Of a stretch of DNA of 64,000 nt, positions 35,717-46,830 are shown piece after piece. The stretch is from Stieleria maiorica. GTDB lineage: Bacteria; Planctomycetota; Planctomycetia; Pirellulales; Pirellulaceae. How positions within the stretch are numbered: position 1 is the stretch's first letter; every line of letters starts with the position of its first letter. The stretch is taken from positions 4,338,402 through 4,402,401 of the forward strand of contig NZ_CP036264.1 of assembly GCF_008035925.1 (NCBI RefSeq). The letters run 5' to 3'. A program made the translations under genes and the position numbers. The notes below the pieces were generated by a model. It was not told the origin of the DNA. It worked only from the letters and a program-made list of their open reading frames with translations, and searched no databases.

Positions 35717-38233
35717 TCAATCGGCCAATTCAGGCATTGGGGCGTTTTCAGCCGGCGTCACGCGCGGCTCCTCGGTGCTTTCGGCTTGCTGGATGAGTTC
35801 CGATTGGGTGGTGCGACACAGCTCCAACAACTCGTTGGTATCGTGCAGCAACGCGAGCCACGAGATCTCTTGTTCGCTGGCCCGCTCGCGAATTCGATCG
35901 GCCGCTTTGGCGATCGAGTCGATGTCGCAGCTGCGGGCGTACATTCCCAAACGGGCGGCCAGCGTTTGCATCCCCTCGGTGTCCTGGCTGTCGATCGCCG
36001 CGGCCAGACGTTCGACTTGGAATCCGATCTGGATCGCCGCTTCGCTGTTGGCGGTGGTGTCTTCTTCGGGTTTGCTGGTGATGACGCTGGCGAAATGCTC
36101 GACCAATTCCGGGTCGAACTGCGATCCGGCGTAGCGTCGCAATTCGTCGATCGCGACTTGATGCGAGCAACCCTCGCGGTAGACGCGGTCGGAAACCATG
36201 GAGTCATAGCTGTCACAGATCGACAGGATCCGGGCCCCGAGGGGGATTTCAGGCCCCACGGGAAGGTTTCGAAAGCGGCCCGAGCCGTCGAAATGTGCTT
36301 GTCGAAACTGAACGGTTTCGGTCAGTTCCTGACATTCGAATGCCGTCTCGATCAGTTCCACGCCGATGCGATCGTGCCACGCGATCAACTCCATTTCATC
36401 GGGGCTGAGCTTGCCGCGTTTGAGCAGGATTTCGTCTGAAACGCCGACCTTGCCGATGTCGTGAAGCAGCGCGGCGATTTCCAGAATGTATTGGCTGCCG
36501 GCGTCCATGTATTGTTTGGAGACCCGCGAACAGAGGTCGGCCACTCGCCGGCTGTGTTGCGCCGTGGCGGCGTCGCGATAGGACAGCGACGCGATCAATG
36601 CGGTCACCGCCTGATAAGGGATTTCGGCGCGTTCCCGCGATTCCGGTTCTCCGCCTTCCATTTGCGACAGTTCGGGACTGTAGGGAATCACACAGTTGCG
36701 TCCGCCGCGTTTGGCGGCGTACAAGCACACGTCCGCCTGGTTGATCAGCTCTTGCGGATCGGCTGCGTCGAAGCGAGTTTCGGAAACACCGACGCTGGCG
36801 GTCAATCGCAGTTGAGCCGGTTCGGTGAAGGTGATTTTTTCGATCGACGCTCGAGTTTGCTCGGCCAGATCGAGCGCGGTTTCGAAATCGATGCCGGGAA
36901 GCAGCACACAGAACTCTTCACCGCCATAGCGGCAAACCAATCCGTGCTCGCCGTGTTCCTCGCGCAGCACACGCGACACTTCGCGCAAGACATCGTCGCC
37001 GATGGCGTGCCCGTAGGTGTCGTTGACCCGCTTGAAGTGGTCATTGTCGAACATGATGCACGAGAGCGGCTTCTGTTCGGCGGCGGCGGTTTTCCAGAGG
37101 TGCCCGAATCGTTCGAAGAATGCGCGACGGTTCAGGCAACCGGTCAAGGCGTCGGTGGTGGCCAGGATCTCCAGCTCACGGTTTTTCTCTTCGATTTCAT
37201 CGCGACTTTCACGCAACATGCTCAGCATCGCTTCGAGCTGTTTGCGGTGTTCTTCGATGTGGGTGACGTCACGGAATGTCGCCAAGGCCCCGCGTCGGGA
37301 GCTGCCGCCGCCGATCGGGGCGGCGTTAACCGAAAAGATCCGCTCGTCGCCATCATGGACCTTCAGGTGCAAGATTTGCTCGGTGATCGTTGCGGATTCG
37401 TCGATCGCCGTCATCCAAGGGTAACTATCCTGGGAATCGCTGTTCTCAAACGTCCACGGCAATTCGTTGGCGCGAGAATTCACCAACAGCTCACTAGACA
37501 CGTCGACCGTCTCGGCGAACGCCCGGTTGGCCAACACGATTTTCGCCTTTTCGTCCAAGACCAACAGCCCTTCGGCAAGCGTGTCCAATGCCTGGCGGAC
37601 GCGTTCGGGCACGACCTGTGTGGTGCTGAATACCCGCATCACCTTGCCCACAAACAGGGTGTATCCGAACAAACCGGTGATGCAGTAAAACGCCAACAAA
37701 CGCATCAGCGGGTGTTCGGCGATGGCACCAAAGTTCGATCGGTCCGGGGCGCGAAAGCAAAACTCGACCGCGCCCCATTCACGTCGATTCAGCGTGATCG
37801 GCACGCTGATCGCGTCAATTCCCTCGCTGTCGGAGGAAACTTGCTGCCACAGATCGTCATGGTGCCCGGCATTGACTTTCAGATCGCCGTGTTTGCTGCG
37901 AACCCCGATCGAAAGCAGGTCGGCGTCTCGATCCACCAACGTCTCCGCCGTCGCGCGGAGGTCCACCCACTGCTGCTTCCGCACATGGGCCGCGGCGTTC
38001 ACCGCCACCGCTTCGCTAAGCCGGCGCCGTGAGTCGCTTTGGATTTGCGTCACGTCAGGCAATAGGCCGAACCAGTGACTAGCCAAAATCAGGCTAGCAC
38101 CGAGGCAGACCAACGCGATTGCGAGGCGAATCGACTGGAGATAAACCCTACCCAAGACGCAACTATTGAAAAAAAGCGAGTTCAAACAGTCAGCTCGGGG
38201 CGTCGCCACCCCGATCTTGGGCTGACCCGCCAT
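35717..38233 (-). CDS. Membrane GGDEF protein with PAS and degenerate HD-GYP domains
   Basis: 838 residues from ATG 38233; longer readings have no membrane or domain support. Order: transmembrane helix (about 33-55, VYLQSIRLAIALVCLGASLI), periplasmic sensor region, second membrane helix (about 190-215), PAS domain (about 235-350), GGDEF domain (active-site RYGGEEF near 435) and an HD-GYP-like domain (HSRRVADLC, LLHDIGKVG near 565). GGEEF is compatible with diguanylate cyclase activity; the usual RxxD inhibitory site before it is absent. In the HD-GYP part, HDIGK is intact but the HHxxxDGxGYP block reads RQAHFDGSGRF, so metal ligands are lost. A C-terminal helical bundle follows. It diverges from the TolC/M50 cluster. 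Confidence 0.88.
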   Translation of the reverse strand: MAGQPKIGVATPRADCLNSLFFNSCVLGRVYLQSIRLAIALVCLGASLILASHWFGLLPDVTQIQSDSRRRLSEAVAVNAAAHVRKQQWVDLRATAETLVDRDADLLSIGVRSKHGDLKVNAGHHDDLWQQVSSDSEGIDAISVPITLNRREWGAVEFCFRAPDRSNFGAIAEHPLMRLLAFYCITGLFGYTLFVGKVMRVFSTTQVVPERVRQALDTLAEGLLVLDEKAKIVLANRAFAETVDVSSELLVNSRANELPWTFENSDSQDSYPWMTAIDESATITEQILHLKVHDGDERIFSVNAAPIGGGSSRRGALATFRDVTHIEEHRKQLEAMLSMLRESRDEIEEKNRELEILATTDALTGCLNRRAFFERFGHLWKTAAAEQKPLSCIMFDNDHFKRVNDTYGHAIGDDVLREVSRVLREEHGEHGLVCRYGGEEFCVLLPGIDFETALDLAEQTRASIEKITFTEPAQLRLTASVGVSETRFDAADPQELINQADVCLYAAKRGGRNCVIPYSPELSQMEGGEPESRERAEIPYQAVTALIASLSYRDAATAQHSRRVADLCSRVSKQYMDAGSQYILEIAALLHDIGKVGVSDEILLKRGKLSPDEMELIAWHDRIGVELIETAFECQELTETVQFRQAHFDGSGRFRNLPVGPEIPLGARILSICDSYDSMVSDRVYREGCSHQVAIDELRRYAGSQFDPELVEHFASVITSKPEEDTTANSEAAIQIGFQVERLAAAIDSQDTEGMQTLAARLGMYARSCDIDSIAKAADRIRERASEQEISWLALLHDTNELLELCRTTQSELIQQAESTEEPRVTPAENAPMPELAD

Positions 38234-38611
38234 CGAGCCAACCCGGTATCGAGCCAAGTTTTGCTTCTCGCTATGCCCATTGCCCTGGCGAAACGCCACC
38301 AACCGACGCGCCGCGCGAAAAGAAATCAGGATCGCGCCGTGACGGGGAGTCGTATCGATTGTGACGGCTCCTGCCCGTTCGACGCGGTCCTGGTCAGGCC
38401 CGCTTTTGCTCCCCGCTGGGCAGTTGAGCTCGGCCGACTCCGGGGGGGCATCCTTTGCATGCAATTGGCAAGTGTTGACGATTGTTCGGCTTGTGCCCGC
38501 TTGGACTGGCGTCAGAACGCCATTTCTCGATGCCGGATCGATCCGAACGATCGTTGCGACCGATCCACCAATTTGCATGGACATGCAAGACGCATGGGTT
38601 GCGCTGCTGAG
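38234..38611. other. Shared divergent upstream region of the GGDEF gene and the TolC cluster
   Basis: An open frame runs through this stretch ahead of the TolC gene, but its sequence is low-complexity basic with no domain and no signal peptide at its start, so I treat it as non-coding. Both promoters should lie here; no operator or promoter could be identified with confidence. Confidence 0.5.
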
Positions 38612-40747
38612 ATGGACTTAAACGAGAATTTGATGCCACGGATGGGATTCGGTCCACCGACAATCGCTGTGTTCGTCATGGTGTTTACCATGACGGTAGC
38701 GCAGGGATTGTATGCCCAGCATCCGCCTGAAACGCAACGCTTGGGGATTCCCCAGCCATCCGCGTCGGCAACCATCGCCGCGACGCCCCCGGTCGGCAGC
38801 CTGCCGAAGCGATTGCCACCGGCGCCGATGGACTTGCTGGCTGCCCCTACGGTCAGCGGTGACACGGCTCCGATCCAATGGTGGACCGACCGGGTGACAC
38901 AGCAAGTGCTCGATCGCGACCGTTGGGTCCGATTCGACTTGGAAACGATCCTGTTGGACACGCTCGCACACAGCCCTCGCATCTTGAGTGTCGGCTACGA
39001 GGCCAGTTCGACGTTCCAGCGGATCGTTCAACAGGACGCAGCCTTCGATTCCACCATTCTGTTGGGCGGAAACCTTGGCGCGACAAACGATCCGGTCGGC
39101 AATACCCTGACGACCGGAGGGGCGGACCGCTTGCGCGAAAAGTCGCTGAACTTCAATGGCGGCGTTCGAAAGACCACACGGACCGGCACCGAGCTGGAAT
39201 TGTCCCAGGAAATCGGATTCCTGGATAGCAACAGCTCGTTCTTCGTCCCCCGCGATCAGGGCAACGCACGGTTGAGCCTGAGTTTGACCAAGCCACTGCT
39301 CTCGCGTGGAGGTCGCTACTACAACGAACGCCTGGTGACGCAGGCGAGAATCGAGAACCGGGTTGCCTGGCAGGACATGCGGGGAGCGGTCGAGCAACGC
39401 ATCGCGGATGTGATCGCCGCCTACTGGAAATTGTACGAAGCGCGGGCGATGCTGACCCAGCAACGTGAATTGTTAGCGCGCAGCCGTCATATCGAGCGGC
39501 TGCTGGTCAGCCGAAAGGACTTTGATGCCGCGTTGATCGAAATCACCAAGGCGAAACAGCGGGTCGCACGCCGTGCCGACCAGGTGATCGACTTGGAGGC
39601 GGGGCTGAAGAAGCAGCAGGCCCGGCTGGCCGCTTTGGTCGGCAGCGAAGCGATGATCGGCGCCGACAGCGATTTGGAATTGATCCCGATGGCGTCGCCG
39701 ATCATCGATCACACCCGCTGGACGTTACGCGATGCCGTCGCCCAGGCGCTGGAGAACCGCCCGGAAATCCGCGCCGCGACTCATGACGTCGAGCTTTCGG
39801 CATTGGAGTTGCGCGTCGCACGCGCGGAATTGGAACCACAGCTGAACTGGGTTTTCAATGGATACCTGGCGCAGCTGAACGGCGCCAGCAAGGTCGCGCG
39901 ATCCTTCGGCGAACAATTTGACAACGCCCCGGGCGTCTCCACCGGTCTGGAATTCGAACTACCGCGAGGACGACGTGCGTTTCGTGCCCAGCATCGCGAA
40001 GCGCTGTTGAGGGCGCGTCAGCGTTCGCAACGTCTGCGCGAAGTGATCCAGCAGACTCAATTCGACGTCGAAACCGCGCTGATCGACCTGGAGCGATTCG
40101 AACAGCAGCTGGTCAGCAAACGCAACGTGCTGTCGACCGCGGTGACCGAAGAGAACATCCTGACGGTTCAGTGGCGAATCATCGGTGGCGACGATTCACG
40201 CGTCGGCATCAAGCTGGAAAACCTGTTGGATGCACAACAGCGGCGCACCGATGCGGAGAAGGATTTGGTCAAGGTGCAGGCAGCCTACATGATCGGATTG
40301 GTCCAGTTGCAACGGGCGATGGGGACGCTGCTGATCAACGAGGGGATTCGCCCGGCACAATCGGCCTGCAGCGGCGAGATCGATTTTCTGCGCGACAACT
40401 TTCAGCCAGAAACGATCATCCTGTCACCGGAGCAGAGGTCTGCGGCCGGGACCGACGCGGTCCAAGCGGCTCCGACGGCCGGCGGCGATGTGCGGGCGCC
40501 TTTAGACAGCGATGCGGCCGGTCAGACGGCAGCCCCCGTTCCCGCCGACGAACCGCCACGTTCCAAGGTGGCCTTGCCGCGACGCATCGGTCGACCCGCG
40601 TTGAATGCTGCGGCGGCTCCCGCAATGCAGCCCGAGGAACAAACCACACCGCCGCCGTCCGAGCGGGCGGCGAATGCTCCGCCCAGTCCTGCGTTGCCTC
40701 AGGATAGCGCATCCTGGCGAACGCCCTCGGGAGGCTGGACGCGATAA
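38612..40747 (+). CDS. TolC-family outer-membrane efflux protein
   Basis: 711 residues from ATG 38612 (ATG 38633 or 38642 also fit). A signal peptide follows (PTIAVFVMVFTMTVAQGLYA). The OEP repeats run from about 90 to 560 with long amphipathic helices, for example AYWKLYEARAMLTQQRELLA and DAVAQALENRPEIRAATHDV, and the typical RAELEPQLNWVF and TGLEFELPRGRRAF blocks. The last 120 residues are Pro/Ala-rich and low complexity, an unusual tail. It should form the outer-membrane channel of an export system with the two HlyD-type proteins downstream. The next start is 87 nt away. Confidence 0.9.
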   Translation: MDLNENLMPRMGFGPPTIAVFVMVFTMTVAQGLYAQHPPETQRLGIPQPSASATIAATPPVGSLPKRLPPAPMDLLAAPTVSGDTAPIQWWTDRVTQQVLDRDRWVRFDLETILLDTLAHSPRILSVGYEASSTFQRIVQQDAAFDSTILLGGNLGATNDPVGNTLTTGGADRLREKSLNFNGGVRKTTRTGTELELSQEIGFLDSNSSFFVPRDQGNARLSLSLTKPLLSRGGRYYNERLVTQARIENRVAWQDMRGAVEQRIADVIAAYWKLYEARAMLTQQRELLARSRHIERLLVSRKDFDAALIEITKAKQRVARRADQVIDLEAGLKKQQARLAALVGSEAMIGADSDLELIPMASPIIDHTRWTLRDAVAQALENRPEIRAATHDVELSALELRVARAELEPQLNWVFNGYLAQLNGASKVARSFGEQFDNAPGVSTGLEFELPRGRRAFRAQHREALLRARQRSQRLREVIQQTQFDVETALIDLERFEQQLVSKRNVLSTAVTEENILTVQWRIIGGDDSRVGIKLENLLDAQQRRTDAEKDLVKVQAAYMIGLVQLQRAMGTLLINEGIRPAQSACSGEIDFLRDNFQPETIILSPEQRSAAGTDAVQAAPTAGGDVRAPLDSDAAGQTAAPVPADEPPRSKVALPRRIGRPALNAAAAPAMQPEEQTTPPPSERAANAPPSPALPQDSASWRTPSGGWTR

Positions 40748-40834
40748 CGAGGGACGTCGTCCGCACATGCCATTGCCTGTTGGTTGCCATCACCCATCCA
40801 CCATTCGACTCCACGATCGAATTTCAGAACCGTC

Positions 40835-41854
40835 ATGAAGATCACTCCATCCAAAAGCCAACCGAAGCGATCGAAAATGTCGTTGTTCGTTGCCGCGGCG
40901 TCGTTGGCGATGCTGGTCTGCGGGCTCGGCGCGGTCCCGGCGATCTTGCTCGCCCAGGATTCCGGGGCGTATTCCCGCACTTCGCGGCAAGGACCAGGCT
41001 ATCAGGGCGGTTCGATTACGATCGACTATGAAGGGTTCACGATTCCCAAGTTCGACATCCTGGTCGCAGCGACCGAAATCGGACGTTTGGACGCGGTGAA
41101 CGTCGAAGTCGGTGACCGGGTTTTAAAAGGTGATGTGGTTGCAAAACTGGAAGACGGATTACAAGCCGAAGCGGTGGCGACGGCTCGCTGGCGTGCCCAA
41201 ATGCATGGCGAAACCGATGCGGCCAAGGCGGAAACGACGTTGATGAAGTTGCGGCTGGAACAATTGCAATCGCTCGCCGACCAGGATGTCGCTCGCCCCG
41301 ACGAACTGAAACGGGCGTATGCAGACTGGGAGATCGCAAAGTCGCGCGAGCTGGGCGCGATGGAACAGGACCAACTCCGAAAACTAGAGCTTTCCCGGTA
41401 CGAGCTGCAACTGCAGCGGCGCAAGGTGCTCGCGCCCATGGATGGTGTGGTTGCGGAACTGTTTCACGCCCCCGGCGAATACATCACTCCCGCCGATCCA
41501 GCCGTCATTCGGTTGGTGGTGCTGGATGAACTCTACGGCGTGTTCAATGTGCCGGTGGAAGAAATCGGGATGGTTCATTTGGGCGACAAGGTCCAGGTGT
41601 TCATGACCAGTGCGGGGAAAAGTGTGCGTGGCGAAGTCGCATCGATTGCACCGGACATTGATGGTGAAAGCGGAACGATCAAGGTCAAAGTGCTGTTGGA
41701 CAACAAAGCGGGGGACCTTCGCAGCGGTGATCGCTGCCGAATGAAGCCCGCGGTGCCGCGGACGGCGCAGCATCACCATCTGCCGGCTCCCGTCACAAGA
41801 CGCATCGGCCCTGGAGCGATCGCCAAACAGAGTGAGGTGTCCGGGATCCGATGA
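40835..41854 (+). CDS. HlyD/RND-type periplasmic adaptor protein
   Basis: 339 residues from ATG 40835. A signal peptide or anchor (MSLFVAAASLAMLVCGLGAVPA) precedes the mature part. Lipoyl-like halves flank a coiled-coil hairpin: GRLDAVNVEVGDRVLKGDVV near residue 79 and KVLAPMDGVVAELFHAPGEY near 196, with the helical hairpin at about 110-190; a beta-barrel (GVFNVPVEEIGMVHLGDKVQ) follows. Such adaptors join an inner-membrane machine to TolC. The stop overlaps the next start in an ATGA, so the next protein is made with it. Confidence 0.9.
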   Translation: MKITPSKSQPKRSKMSLFVAAASLAMLVCGLGAVPAILLAQDSGAYSRTSRQGPGYQGGSITIDYEGFTIPKFDILVAATEIGRLDAVNVEVGDRVLKGDVVAKLEDGLQAEAVATARWRAQMHGETDAAKAETTLMKLRLEQLQSLADQDVARPDELKRAYADWEIAKSRELGAMEQDQLRKLELSRYELQLQRRKVLAPMDGVVAELFHAPGEYITPADPAVIRLVVLDELYGVFNVPVEEIGMVHLGDKVQVFMTSAGKSVRGEVASIAPDIDGESGTIKVKVLLDNKAGDLRSGDRCRMKPAVPRTAQHHHLPAPVTRRIGPGAIAKQSEVSGIR

Positions 41855-43272
41855 GCAGCACGCGTCCTTCGCTAACGACACCACAGGGGCGGTCGGCGGA
41901 ATCCGGAAGTGGATCGGCACGTCCGGCGGGCGACGTTGCGCGCCCAGACGCCGACGCCGCGCAGTTGACTGCGACAGCGGCAGCGACAGCGGAGTCGGCA
42001 AAACCACTCGCGCTGATTCAATGCGTGGCCGAAGCGAAGGATCAAACGGCGGCGATCATCGCGATGGTCAATTTTATCGCCAAGCAATTCCCGACCAGTC
42101 GCGTTCGCTGCGGACTGGGGACGACCCAGCTGCGGCGGTTTTACGAATGTCGGTTGGGCTGGCTGGGGCCGGCCAGTGAGCTGTTTCAAAATGCGGCAGA
42201 CGGTTGGAATGATGACGCGTCGTCGCTACCGACACGGCCCGACGTTCCCGCGATGGATCGAGCACAAAGCAACGCCGCACCGAGCGAGTTGTTGCGGTTG
42301 AACTTGGATGACGACGTCGGATTGGGACGCTGCGTGCTGTGGATCGATGGCGGCGAGTTGACGGCTGCGGATCGAACCTGGCTGCGTCGGGCATTGCCAA
42401 GTTTACGTGCGATCGTCTGGATGCGTGGGGGCGGAGTCACGACCCAGATGTGGCGATGGCTCTCACACAGCGGCATGATCGGGCGTATCTACATCGGGTT
42501 GGCTGCGTTGGCTGTGGTCTTGATGATGATTTGGCCGGTGTCCTACCGCGTTCGCTGCACCACGGTGGTGCGGCCGAAACATTCGCGGATCGTTTCGGCG
42601 CCGTTCGATGCGACGTTGCAGGCGGCGCATGTCCAGCCCGGCGATGCGGTCCAACGGGGTGACGTGTTGATTTCTCTGGACGGGCGGCCGTTGCGGTTGG
42701 AACTGGAGGCCATTGAAGCTCAAATCGGTCAGGTTTTGAAAGAGCGTGACGTGGCGATGGTCGGTGGCCGGGTCGCGGAATCACAACAAGCAAAATTGAA
42801 GATTCGTGAATTGAATCGGCAACGCGATCTGCTGATCAGTCGCCTGGACCGCTTGAATGTGACCAGTCCGATCGACGGCATCATCGTGTTGGGTGATCTT
42901 CATCGGTCCATCGGGGCGCCGTTGGAGACCGGGCAAGCGGTGTTGGAGATCGCACCGCTGGGTGAAATGGTGGTGGAGCTGGAGATTCCCGAATATGAAA
43001 TCGGATACGTTGCCGAGGGCATGCCGGCTCGCGTTCGGTTGACCGCGAACGAAGGTGGCGCGATCGAACAACCGATCGATACGGTGTACCCCAGCGCGGA
43101 ACTTCGTGACGATCAAAACGTGTTTATCGGTCACATCCATGTCGACAACCAAGACGGCACGCTTCGCCCTGGAATGCGAGGCGATGCGATCGCCTATGGC
43201 CCGGTGCGGCCGTGGCTGTGGTCGTTGATTCGTTCGGGATGGGAAAAGACGCTTTGGTGGGTCGGCTACTGA
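41851..43272 (+). CDS. Membrane-anchored HlyD-type protein with GAF-like N-terminal part
   Basis: 473 residues. Residues 1-50 are low complexity; residues about 52-115 look like a shortened GAF domain (ALIQCVAEAKDQTAAIIAM, SRVRCGLGTTQLRRFYECRL). A single membrane helix lies at 211-230 (GRIYIGLAALAVVLMMIWPV). After it come HlyD features: IVSAPFDATLQAAHVQPGDA near 244, a short coiled coil at about 290-330 and VTSPIDGIIVLGDLHRSIGA near 345. The topology puts the GAF-like part in the cytoplasm and the adaptor part in the periplasm. Starts inside the preceding gene (ATGA) and ends ten bases before the M50 gene start. Confidence 0.85.
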   Translation: MSSTRPSLTTPQGRSAESGSGSARPAGDVARPDADAAQLTATAAATAESAKPLALIQCVAEAKDQTAAIIAMVNFIAKQFPTSRVRCGLGTTQLRRFYECRLGWLGPASELFQNAADGWNDDASSLPTRPDVPAMDRAQSNAAPSELLRLNLDDDVGLGRCVLWIDGGELTAADRTWLRRALPSLRAIVWMRGGGVTTQMWRWLSHSGMIGRIYIGLAALAVVLMMIWPVSYRVRCTTVVRPKHSRIVSAPFDATLQAAHVQPGDAVQRGDVLISLDGRPLRLELEAIEAQIGQVLKERDVAMVGGRVAESQQAKLKIRELNRQRDLLISRLDRLNVTSPIDGIIVLGDLHRSIGAPLETGQAVLEIAPLGEMVVELEIPEYEIGYVAEGMPARVRLTANEGGAIEQPIDTVYPSAELRDDQNVFIGHIHVDNQDGTLRPGMRGDAIAYGPVRPWLWSLIRSGWEKTLWWVGY

Positions 43273-43278
43273 GGTGAG
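43271..43278 (+). promoter_or_regulatory. Ribosome-binding site deciding the M50 start
   Basis: GAGGTGAG lies 4 nt before ATG 43283 and overlaps the stop codon of the previous gene. It favours ATG 43283 over the GTG at 43274, which sits inside this site. Confidence 0.6.
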
Positions 43279-43282
43279 CGCC

Positions 43283-45505
43283 ATGGATGATCACACCACC
43301 CACTCCAGCCCGGAAACCGATGCGGCGGATCCATTGACGGTGATCGTCCAGGTCGATCCGGCGGTGGAGTTCTCGTCACGCGGAAACCAGTCACAGACGG
43401 TCTATGTCGGAAAGGATCGCCGAACGGGCAAGTATTATCGGTTTGGCGCCCGCGAGTATCACGCCGTCAGCTTGATGGACGGACGGCGAACCCTGGGAGA
43501 GATCCATCGCCAGCTGCAACAGGATGGGTTGTCGTGGACGGAAGTCGACGTGATCGCCTTTGTCAAAGAATTGGTCCAGCACCGGTTGGCGGTCGTCCTG
43601 CCGATCGAAAAGGAGGTTTCGCGGCCGGTTGAGACGGCGGATCATGACGCAGCGAGTGCGGATGCGAGTGCGACGGCAGGTGCGAACGCGACCCAACCGT
43701 CAACCGACCGCCGGAAACGATGGGCTGGGATGGCGCTGCGTGGGTTGGGGGGACTGCTGACACAGCGATTTCCGCTGGCCGACGGCGACCGCGTCGCTGC
43801 GAAACTGTTGCCGGCGTTCGGGGGCTTGTTCAGCGCCGCCGCGATGGCGGTTTGGACGGTGTTGGTGGTGGCGGGTGTCGGTGTGGTTTGGTCCAACGCC
43901 GATGCGTTTTCCACCGAAGTGCGACGGGTGTTTGACCAACAACTGTGGTTGGTTCTGGCGCTCTTGTGGTGCGTGTTGAAGATCGTTCACGAGTGCGGAC
44001 ACGCGGTGTGCGCGAAACGACACGGGGTGCGCGTCGGTCGCATGGGAATCATGTTTTTCCTGTTCGCCCCCCTGGCTTATGTCGACGTGACCGATGCCTG
44101 GAAACTGGTGCGTCGGCGGGATCGCGTTCAAATCGCGCTGGCCGGCGTGTACGTGGAATTGGCGATCGGAGCCGTTGCCGCGCTGATCTGGTGGATCAGT
44201 CCCGTCGGATTTGCCAAGCACCTTGCGGCCCAAGTCTTTCTGGTCGCCGGCCCGGCGACGCTGTTGGTCAATGCGAACCCGTTATTGCGGTTGGACGGGT
44301 ACTATGTATTGAGTGATCTGCTTGAGATCCCGAATCTACGCGCCCATGGTCGCAAGCGATTGGGGGCGATGATCGAATGCCTGTTGTTTCGGATCCGGAT
44401 GCCGGAAAGTCCGCTGGTCGGGTGGCGTCGAGATTTTGCGGCGTTTCATGCACTCTGCTCGGTCGTCTTTCAAATCGTGTGGATGTCAGGGTTGGTGTTC
44501 GCGGTTGCAACATGGGCCAAGGGGCTGGGCATCCTGATCGCGATCATTGCCGCAACGATGTGGGGCGTGTTGCCGCTGTTGCGATGGATGGTCAAGATGT
44601 GGACGCTGGCGCCGCGAGAGGGATGGACGTTGAACTTCTATCAACGGCGGTTGATCGGCATTTGCACGTTCATTGCGCTGATCATTCAATTTGCCACCGT
44701 GCACAGTTCGCCGCTGGCTCGTCGCGTACCGGTCGTGGTGCAGTTTCAAAACGAACAGATCGCGCGGGCTCCGGTCGACGCCTTTGTCGCATCGGTGTTC
44801 GTCCAATGCGGTGACCGCGTTCAGCGGGGCACGTTGTTGATGGAACTGGAACAGCCCGAACTTGTGCTCCGACGTGACCAGTTGATCGATCAACGGGACG
44901 TCGAATCGGCCAAGGCGGTGCAACACCGCCAGCGAGGCGAGTTGGCACTTTCCAAGGTCGCACAACAGAACGCCGAAAGTTTGGATCGTCGATTGGCCGA
45001 GATCGACGAGCAGATCGACACGATGCGAATTCTGGCGACGCGTGACGGCAAGATCACGACGCCGGCGACCGACCACTTGCTGGGACGATATGTGAAACAA
45101 GGCGAAGAGTTGTTGCGTGTCTCGGATCCTCAAGAAAAGGAAATCATGGCGATCGTTGCCGAAGACAACCTGGAAGCCTATAAGAAGGCTGCCGCGGACC
45201 GACAGGTCGCTTCGGTCCGGCTGCGAGGCGGGGTGACCCTCGACGCCCCGCTGCGGGATCTCCAGCCGTCCGCCAGCCGCAGATTGCCGCACCCGGCGTT
45301 GGCTGCGACGGCCGGTGGCCCGTTGGCGGTCCAAATGTTGCAGCCGTCGGAAGACTACGAGCTGGTGCACCCACAATTGCGGTCCGTTCTGCCGCTCAAC
45401 CCGCTGACCAGCCTGTCGGTGCAGGCGGGGCAGATCGGACGTTTGACAATCCCGGATGATCGTAGCCTCGTGTCGCGACTCTGGGATCACCTGCAGTCTC
45501 GGTAA
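43283..45505 (+). CDS. PqqD-like / M50 metalloprotease / HlyD fusion membrane protein
   Basis: 740 residues. N-terminal domain (about 15-105) follows the PqqD pattern: YVGKDRRTGKYYRFGAREYH, LMDGRRTLGEIHRQLQQDG. Then a polytopic membrane region (about 175-475) carries the site-2 protease signatures: HExxH as HECGH at 236-240 and the distal Asp in NPLLRLDGYY at residue 338, so the zinc site looks intact. The last 250 residues have a HlyD-like biotinyl-lipoyl and coiled-coil arrangement (ASVFVQCGDRVQRGTLLMEL near 510). It may process or move a peptide across the inner membrane and dock to the adaptor and TolC encoded upstream. Similar M50-HlyD proteins are known in planctomycetes without assigned function. 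Confidence 0.88.
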   Translation: MDDHTTHSSPETDAADPLTVIVQVDPAVEFSSRGNQSQTVYVGKDRRTGKYYRFGAREYHAVSLMDGRRTLGEIHRQLQQDGLSWTEVDVIAFVKELVQHRLAVVLPIEKEVSRPVETADHDAASADASATAGANATQPSTDRRKRWAGMALRGLGGLLTQRFPLADGDRVAAKLLPAFGGLFSAAAMAVWTVLVVAGVGVVWSNADAFSTEVRRVFDQQLWLVLALLWCVLKIVHECGHAVCAKRHGVRVGRMGIMFFLFAPLAYVDVTDAWKLVRRRDRVQIALAGVYVELAIGAVAALIWWISPVGFAKHLAAQVFLVAGPATLLVNANPLLRLDGYYVLSDLLEIPNLRAHGRKRLGAMIECLLFRIRMPESPLVGWRRDFAAFHALCSVVFQIVWMSGLVFAVATWAKGLGILIAIIAATMWGVLPLLRWMVKMWTLAPREGWTLNFYQRRLIGICTFIALIIQFATVHSSPLARRVPVVVQFQNEQIARAPVDAFVASVFVQCGDRVQRGTLLMELEQPELVLRRDQLIDQRDVESAKAVQHRQRGELALSKVAQQNAESLDRRLAEIDEQIDTMRILATRDGKITTPATDHLLGRYVKQGEELLRVSDPQEKEIMAIVAEDNLEAYKKAAADRQVASVRLRGGVTLDAPLRDLQPSASRRLPHPALAATAGGPLAVQMLQPSEDYELVHPQLRSVLPLNPLTSLSVQAGQIGRLTIPDDRSLVSRLWDHLQSR

Positions 45506-45726
45506 GCGCTGGTCCAACGTAGCTACCTTCGCCAGAACGTGGTTCACAAGTGTTGGATACTAGCCCGCAGCGCTGGCAAGGGCTGATGCAGGCCCACTCG
45601 CTTGCGCTTCGCGCCAGTAATCAACAGACCGCTAGCGGACGTGGCGACAACCTGTGAAATCGGGTCTCAGCGACGCGAACAACGCCTTTGACGTGTGGAT
45701 CGATAAATGGACCGGTAACCGAAAAG
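45506..45726. other. Gap with half a family B repeat
   Basis: Only the left half of a family B repeat is present at 45517-45543 (ACGTAGCTACCTTCGCCAGA then ACGTGG). The rest shows nothing I can support. Confidence 0.55.
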
Positions 45727-46830
45727 ATGCGAAACACCGCTCGGGCAAGTTATTTTTTTGTCCTCGAACCCGAATCCGCCGGCAGTCAAGACGCTGATCC
45801 ACCACCCGGTACAGCTGGAGGCAATCCTGGCCGCAAGATAGCGACGCCCCCCGAGATGCCCGGTCTGATCGATTGGATCGGGAAGCTGGCGAGGTTCCTC
45901 GCACGAATCGGTGTGATCGCAGTGTTGCTCGGTACATCGGCGACCCTGCCGGCACGCTGGTTTTGGTTTTCGGATCTGTTGGCGAGCCTGCGGATCCAGC
46001 AATTGATCGCTGCGGGGATCACGGTGCTGTTCTGCTTGTTGGTCAAACAGTTCCGATTGGCCTTGATCGGATCGATCTGTATTTCGGTGCACTTGGTGCC
46101 CATGATGCCGGAACTGGTTCCGGCCGCGGTCTCCGGTCCAGCGGGAAACGCACCGCTCCGGTTGATGACGATGAACGTGTTGACACGTAACCAGGATTAT
46201 CAGCGCGTGGTCGATGAAATCCGGCAAGTCGATCCGGATCTGGTCGCCGTTCTGGAGTTGAGCAGCGGGTTGAACGGCTATCTTTCAAACGGACTGGCAG
46301 ACGTGTATCCGCACGCCGTTTCGAGCCCAGAAGACACGGGGAATTTCGGAATCGGTGTGTTTAGCAAGCGTCCATTCGACGAAGCTCGGATGTTTCAGTT
46401 GAACGAAAACATCACGTCAATCGAAGTGGTCTGTGATGGGAATCTGATCGTGGCGACCCATCCCTTGCCGCCGATGGGCAGCCGTGGGTTTCGCTCCCGC
46501 AATGAACACCTGACTCTGCTCGCAGAACGAATGGTTCGACACCGACACGATTTTCCAGAGCGATCCGTTGCGGTGTTGGGGGATTTTAATGTGACTCCTT
46601 GGTCGCCGCATTTCAGACGGTTCCAACGCGAATCAGGGCTAATCCGTGCCAAGTTGGGGATTGCTGTGATGCCGACGTGGTATGCGCGCGATTCCAGTTT
46701 TCCGTTCGGACTGGTGCTGGATCACATCTTCATCAGCGATTCGCTTCGGTGTGTCGACTACCGTGTCGGGCGGGACGTCGGTTCGGATCACCGCAGCGTC
46801 AGCGTCGCGTTGACGCACACGAAGTCTTGA
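45727..46830 (+). CDS. Endonuclease/exonuclease/phosphatase-fold membrane protein
   Basis: 367 residues from ATG 45727; ATG 45856 is an alternative that starts just before the membrane part. Three membrane segments lie at about 55-150 (GVIAVLLGTSATLPARWFWF, LIAAGITVLFCLLV, LALIGSICISVHLVPMMPEL). The catalytic domain then shows the fold's signatures: RLMTMNVLTRNQ, DPDLVAVLEL, VLGDFNVTPWSP, LDHIFIS and GSDHRSVSV. It resembles YafD-type exported phosphodiesterases or phosphatases, so a periplasmic hydrolase acting on nucleic acid, phospholipid or inositol phosphate is possible. It follows the M50 gene but is separated by 221 nt and a repeat, so operon membership is unsure. Confidence 0.85.
   Translation: MRNTARASYFFVLEPESAGSQDADPPPGTAGGNPGRKIATPPEMPGLIDWIGKLARFLARIGVIAVLLGTSATLPARWFWFSDLLASLRIQQLIAAGITVLFCLLVKQFRLALIGSICISVHLVPMMPELVPAAVSGPAGNAPLRLMTMNVLTRNQDYQRVVDEIRQVDPDLVAVLELSSGLNGYLSNGLADVYPHAVSSPEDTGNFGIGVFSKRPFDEARMFQLNENITSIEVVCDGNLIVATHPLPPMGSRGFRSRNEHLTLLAERMVRHRHDFPERSVAVLGDFNVTPWSPHFRRFQRESGLIRAKLGIAVMPTWYARDSSFPFGLVLDHIFISDSLRCVDYRVGRDVGSDHRSVSVALTHTKS

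Follow-up and report, generated by a model that had tools for sequence, protein, structure and literature searches.

The closest described system is the gene module reported by Kamneva, Poudel and Ward (2015; PMC4452313), in which genes for M50, HlyD and GAF/HlyD proteins, and sometimes an OEP, lie around a secondary SecA_DEAD gene. Its authors pointed out that an ABC transporter was missing there, proposed a role in secretion, and put forward SecA and the M50 protein as ATPase and pore, respectively. A related cluster of four genes was analysed here in a 64-kb stretch of DNA (the window; NCBI RefSeq assembly GCF_008035925.1, contig NZ_CP036264.1, positions 4,338,402 to 4,402,401) from the 9.9 Mb, single-contig genome of Stieleria maiorica. 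The cluster encodes a TolC-type channel, two HlyD-type adaptors and an M50/HlyD fusion, and is a SecA-less relative of the Kamneva module. M50-HlyD, HlyD and (GAF-)HlyD proteins occur together in both, with a channel in some loci of the published module; the window type differs in having no SecA gene at the locus and in forming a separate M50 clade. On balance, the cluster appears to be a dedicated trans-envelope machine that recognises, processes and exports one class of giant surface proteins, referred to below as class A.

Giant adhesins such as SiiE and LapA leave the cell by type I secretion, which shares with this locus a TolC-type channel, an HlyD-type adaptor and a giant, repeat-rich cargo. 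Such adhesins, LapA for example, are under cyclic di-GMP (c-di-GMP) control, which the GGDEF neighbour of the cluster recalls. The locus differs in that no ABC transporter was found with it, a membrane protease is fused to an adaptor, and the C-terminal module of the candidate cargo is hydrophobic and mostly of the form GY-x2-W-x2-RGG. Tripartite RND/MFS efflux also differs in that hydropathy showed no transporter of either kind in the window to partner the adaptor. In the PEP-CTERM/exosortase and GlyGly-CTERM/rhombosortase systems, a shared hydrophobic C-terminal tag follows the distribution of one intramembrane protease. Tag and intramembrane protease are likewise co-distributed here, with exceptions, but the protease is of the M50 type, the tag sequence is another one, and cleavage within it is putative. 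The M50 proteases of daptide and YydH/LiaK biosynthesis, which act on ribosomally synthesised and post-translationally modified peptides (RiPPs), share the M50 core; the window protein scores below both curated cut-offs and has an added adaptor domain.

The four-gene cluster and its M50 fusion protein

Domains of the four products were named using Pfam and NCBIfam. The genes are as follows.

38612..40747, plus strand: TolC-type outer-membrane channel (OMF), 711 amino acids (aa) from this ATG; OEP PF02321, E 1.1e-19
40784..41854, plus strand: periplasmic adaptor of the HlyD/RND_mfp type, 356 aa from TTG; TIGR01730, 111.3 bits, cut-off 94.9
41851..43272, plus strand: membrane-anchored HlyD-like adaptor with C-terminal HlyD domain; HlyD_3, 2.3e-17
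43274..45505, plus strand: M50/HlyD fusion; Peptidase_M50, 5.8e-9, 36.1 bits, cut-off 27.2; HlyD_D23, 1.8e-8

The initial annotation had described four adjacent plus-strand genes of these kinds with the last three tightly spaced, and both points were borne out. All four genes and their families were recovered, genes 2 and 3 share four bases (41851-41854), and gene 4 begins either one base (GTG 43274) or ten bases (ATG 43283) past the stop at 43272. Genes 1 and 2 are separated by 36 bases (TTG 40784) or 87 bases (ATG 40835). The same order, which it had been suggested to look for in other planctomycetes, was kept in the window and in 15/15 stretches from relatives (13 congeners, G024 and G026). 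It recurred in two of three further, distant loci (L170 and L171), the third (L172) showing HlyD and M50 only.

Judged by eye, the N-terminus of the channel resembles a signal peptide (..LYAQ), and the alternative start of the adaptor at ATG 40835 would give a signal-peptide-like N-terminus. Past its OEP match, the channel protein continues into a C-terminal tail rich in Pro and Ala and about 130 residues long (window 40350-40747). The anchored adaptor contains a single hydrophobic segment near residues 208-228, and its N-terminal domain aligns with the GAF-like part of its relatives; the GAF signal itself is weak, PF01590 matching one of 22 aligned members (E 0.0028) and not the window protein.

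The M50 protein had been singled out as the sole polytopic product, with no known pump beside it, and a hydropathy scan agreed. No second open reading frame (ORF) of at least 150 aa with four or more hydrophobic segments was found in the 64-kb window by crude hydropathy, and no ABC motif was found there by regular expression, a family search of every window gene not being included. Nor was any ABC, RND or MFS gene consistently paired with the M50 fusion elsewhere. Among 80 related loci (the best 80 of 548, from named genomes, some cut by contig ends), regular expressions and hydropathy detected an ABC motif in 3, an RND-like ORF in 2 and an ORF resembling a protein with 12 transmembrane segments in 9. 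The same loci held a GAF-HlyD-type gene in 74 cases, an HlyD gene in 61, a SecA_DEAD gene in 36, a channel gene in 27, a DUF4347 gene in 16 and another ORF of at least 1500 aa in 18. An ABC-type ATPase family was present in 7/16 window-type stretches, outside the cluster. In five of these seven it forms a set with two permeases on the opposite strand; L050, the only set tested, was of the importer type (ABC_tran plus two BPD_transp_1).

The M50 fusion comprises an RRE/PqqD-like domain (residues 23-111), a polytopic M50 core (H239, E240, H243, D341) and a C-terminal adaptor domain (478-737). Across 30 homologues, Pfam M50 matched every protein at E 0.01 or better, the four core residues (HExxH and the aspartate of NP-x4-DG) were invariant, P336 and G342 of the NP-x4-DG region were kept in at least 90%, and HlyD_3, marking the fused adaptor domain, was found in 29. 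The site-2 protease MJ0392 was matched by profile at E 0.0034. The occurrence of HExxH and NP-x4-DG in a polytopic protein assigns the fusion, by its sequence, to the M50 (site-2) type as a putative protease. M50 proteins of the window type ('type I') form one clade with support of 100/100.

The N-terminal domain is predicted to fold like leader-peptide-binding RRE domains. PqqD sequence models matched it weakly, PF05402 being found in 2/30 homologues and TIGR03859 giving E 0.012 for the window protein (15.5 bits, cut-off 46). The best NCBIfam match of the M50 protein was the daptide M50 protease NF041824 (152.3 bits, below the cut-off of 300), the alignment beginning at residue 48, inside the RRE-like domain. 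YydH/LiaK NF058609 was next (37.3 bits, below the cut-off of 225). The initial annotation had suggested that the M50 protein may itself be the core that energises or processes. Because the HExxH residues and the NP-x4-DG aspartate are invariant and an RRE-like domain is predicted, a processing role is favoured; nothing indicates an energising one. That suggestion is partly supported: it points the right way on the lack of a known pump and on the M50 protein as core, its energising role being unsupported.

Candidate cargo and the distribution of its C-terminal tag

M50-HlyD loci often adjoin genes for giants that have a LEPR-XLL-like motif at the N-terminus, a DUF4347 domain and a conserved hydrophobic module at the C-terminus. 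The first LEPR-like pattern occurred in 7/38 ORFs of at least 1000 aa and 2/769 ORFs of 300-999 aa, and was broadened after this result. Class A giants measure approximately 2,400-8,500 aa among those read whole, contain repeats of the cadherin/LamG/beta-helix kind, and have a C-terminal module whose closing DPxxxLxxYR is followed by a short tail. Inspected by eye, the N-termini of the giants carry no apparent hydrophobic Sec signal. For DUF4347, in which a His and a Cys are invariant, a caspase/CHAT-type fold is predicted (model m46120a653535); its closest match is the type VI effector Tce1, and the domain could be self-processing. This differs from the CHAT/caspase-type peptidases of clan CD, since the predicted fold is here a domain of the candidate cargo. 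The longest open frame with DUF4347 among those listed has 11968 aa (G007:C75, near 74114).

A class A giant lies directly beside the cluster in two relatives. In G024, one of 8492 aa adjoins the window-type channel gene divergently; in G026, one of 7096 aa stands divergent beside that gene and is followed by one of 5473 aa. The source genome has three in tandem, 3.6 Mb from the window and unlinked to the cluster, which would be its cargo there.

~668300-677845: class A giant, 3181 aa
678072-685898: class A giant, 2608 aa
685947-695057: class A giant, 3036 aa

A second variant of the tag (class B, DPLLVL) was found within approximately 24 kb of a type II M50 gene in the source genome (L042), and likewise near type II M50 genes in G001, G005, G006, G009, G010, G012 and G013. 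L042 (about 1.535-1.545 Mb) is itself a second SecA-less four-gene locus, with an M50 protein about 30% identical; divergent to its channel gene lies a class B DUF4347 giant of 3372 aa. Other M50 subfamilies may be paired with giants too: near a more distant M50-HlyD paralogue at about 7.78 Mb in the source genome, a minus-strand ORF (L045:2-7030) encodes 2343 aa or more and has the LEPR-like start LETRRVLN, DUF4347 not being obvious in the 400 residues looked at.

DUF4347 was present in 16/16 genomes with a window-type locus. Across the phylum, 12 of 214 sampled genomes had it; an M50-HlyD gene (E 1e-60) was present in ten of these 12, as against 55 of the other 202. The two genes were within 15 kb of each other in eight of these ten, the others being G101 and G233. 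Of 60 relatives, 27 have the C-terminal module (profile A3), and it is present in 24 of the 25 that have an M50 match at E 1e-60. This count is partly circular because giants from 13 of these genomes had gone into building A3. Within the 214 genomes, A3 was found in four, exactly those with M50 scores of at least 770 bits, the next M50 score being 708. G023, G029, G030 and G036 were exceptions to the co-distribution of module and M50, and G275 was one in the case of the class A variant.

The class A ending DPxxxLxxYR was found in 16/16 genomes with a window-type M50 (31 ends) versus 0/11 other tag-bearing genomes read, a contrast that is descriptive only since the signature was chosen after looking at those ends. 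For this strict count 75 ends were read and five matches were left out (G017, G023, two in G036 and a partial one in G001); the tags of G017, G023 and G036 are weak. A looser label A also marks ends in G021, G032, G201 and G259. A fresh test was made on 15 genomes hand-picked from those behind the 80 loci, of which three were expected to have a window-type M50 and nine did (39% identity and at least 470 bits). Among the ends read, class A was present in 8/9 genomes with a window-type M50 versus 0/6 others (p 0.0014), a result that is not fully independent because some genomes are closely related to members of the first set (G274 to G026) or to one another. The M50 cut-offs of 1e-60 and 470 bits were set by us. 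Four of 34 matches, for which there was no locus, were left out (one each in G271, G272, G277 and G281), G277 and G281 counting as negatives. A variant of the signature with an extra anchor gave 7/9, the ends of G273 missing the anchor, and the plain signature applied to all 30 ends gave 8/9 and 0/6. In the ninth genome (G275), a giant is encoded on the same contig as the window-type M50, its end being without YR. As a control, the signature fell within the last 75 residues of 1/3229 ORFs longer than 150 aa.

Proposed mechanism and alternative explanations

The proposal put forward here draws on the genes, their order and conservation, motifs, predicted folds and co-distribution. The RRE-like domain of the M50 protein would bind a short motif at the N- or C-terminus of the cargo, and the intramembrane metalloprotease would process the cargo, most simply in its C-terminal module. 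Together with the HlyD adaptor, the anchored adaptor and the TolC-type channel, the adaptor domain of the M50 protein itself would form the conduit outward. The ATPase would lie outside the cluster and would probably act in trans, as a SecA paralogue. Beyond this, we tentatively consider a giant-protein route distinct from type I secretion. The fusion of RRE-like, M50 and adaptor domains would read a linear tag, pull or gate the giant at the inner membrane, cut its C-terminal membrane module and feed it to TolC without an ABC, RND or MFS pump, and variants of the tag would match cargo to one of several parallel machines within a cell.

The proposal gives an orphan gene cluster a candidate cargo and makes the pairing testable, naming probable cargo genes, an end tag and residues expected to be important. 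If true, several machines would work in parallel in these cells, each specific for one variant of the tag, and giant-protein export would have taken over a peptide-binding domain familiar from RiPP biosynthesis. In open-access full texts, no paper was found on export of planctomycete proteins of thousands of residues, and none linking a site-2 protease with HlyD. The candidate cargo, its tag, the apparent matching of tag and machine, and the predicted RRE-like domain were not found in print. In the portion of Kamneva et al. consulted, DUF4347/LEPR-XLL cargo, the C-terminal module and the RRE-like domain are not named (PMC4452313). The general idea, with the M50 protein as pore and no ABC transporter, is already in print for the SecA-bearing sister loci (PMC4452313).

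A first alternative follows the published proposal: tripartite export in which the M50 protein is the channel and a secondary SecA, acting in trans, the motor, protease activity being secondary. SecA_DEAD is the recurrent ATPase of the related loci (36/80) and is missing from the window locus; no SecA gene was present in any of the 16 window-type stretches (some cut by contig ends), which counts against this explanation. The source genome has SecA_DEAD genes at 0.50, 1.36 and 2.08 Mb, with the window at 4.34-4.40 Mb. One of them is the following orphan gene.

L044:7944-10289 (~0.50 Mb), minus strand: orphan secondary SecA_DEAD gene, GEGKT and DEAD motifs intact

No M50 gene directly adjoins it, the nearest being that of a distant paralogue 14 kb away. 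In the syntenic locus of G001 (L077), HlyD, GAF-HlyD and M50 genes stand beside SecA, so the window genome may have lost these three and kept SecA. G011 has both versions: its second locus (L168) reads giant, channel, SecA, HlyD, GAF-HlyD and M50 (the last incomplete at the end of the fetched stretch), which is the window-type layout of G024 and G026 with SecA inserted. At least three SecA_DEAD matches were found in 23/25 M50-positive versus 9/35 M50-negative relatives. The remaining two M50-positive relatives were G008, with two matches, both of the secondary kind, and G017, which has an M50 locus and only two matches, a point against this explanation. By correlation only, a secondary SecA in trans may be the motor of the cluster. 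The conserved catalytic residues favour proteolysis and nothing points to the M50 protein conducting protein, and the alternative as a whole is considered rather unlikely.

About as unlikely is a two-step route, in which the giants would cross the inner membrane via Sec, using an unrecognised signal or the canonical SecA, before the cluster takes them over from the membrane for the outward step alone and the M50 protein releases them. The hydrophobic C-terminal module fits a membrane-held intermediate, and the cluster showed no inner-membrane translocase; the lack of an evident hydrophobic signal peptide at the N-termini of the giants speaks against this route. Less probable still is efflux of a small molecule or peptide, or RiPP maturation, with the M50 protein maturing a small peptide that the adaptors and channel export with the help of an unlinked pump. 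RRE domains bind RiPP leaders, and the two best NCBIfam matches, both under cut-off, are to RiPP-type M50 proteases. The co-distribution is, however, with giants, and three adaptor-type proteins suit a large conduit. A regulatory role for the M50 protein, as a site-2 protease of the anti-sigma type sitting by chance in an efflux operon, is highly improbable: M50 members are common in signalling and a GGDEF/HD gene adjoins the cluster, but the adaptor domain is fused in nearly all homologues and the gene order with channel and adaptors is conserved.

Neighbouring genes

Two genes flanking the cluster recur in the window-type stretches.

35717..38584, minus strand: PAS-GGDEF-HD protein, divergent to the channel gene; same similarity cluster in 13/16 window-type stretches
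45688..46830, plus strand: Exo_endo_phos protein with about three hydrophobic segments; same similarity cluster in 12/16 window-type stretches

The PAS-GGDEF-HD composition held in the four members of the first similarity cluster that were run against Pfam. GGDEF, HD or kinase genes of this similarity cluster adjoin eight other M50 loci, of which six were tested. By association only, the product of 35717..38584 is a probable c-di-GMP regulator. The Exo_endo_phos protein is perhaps a mere neighbour.
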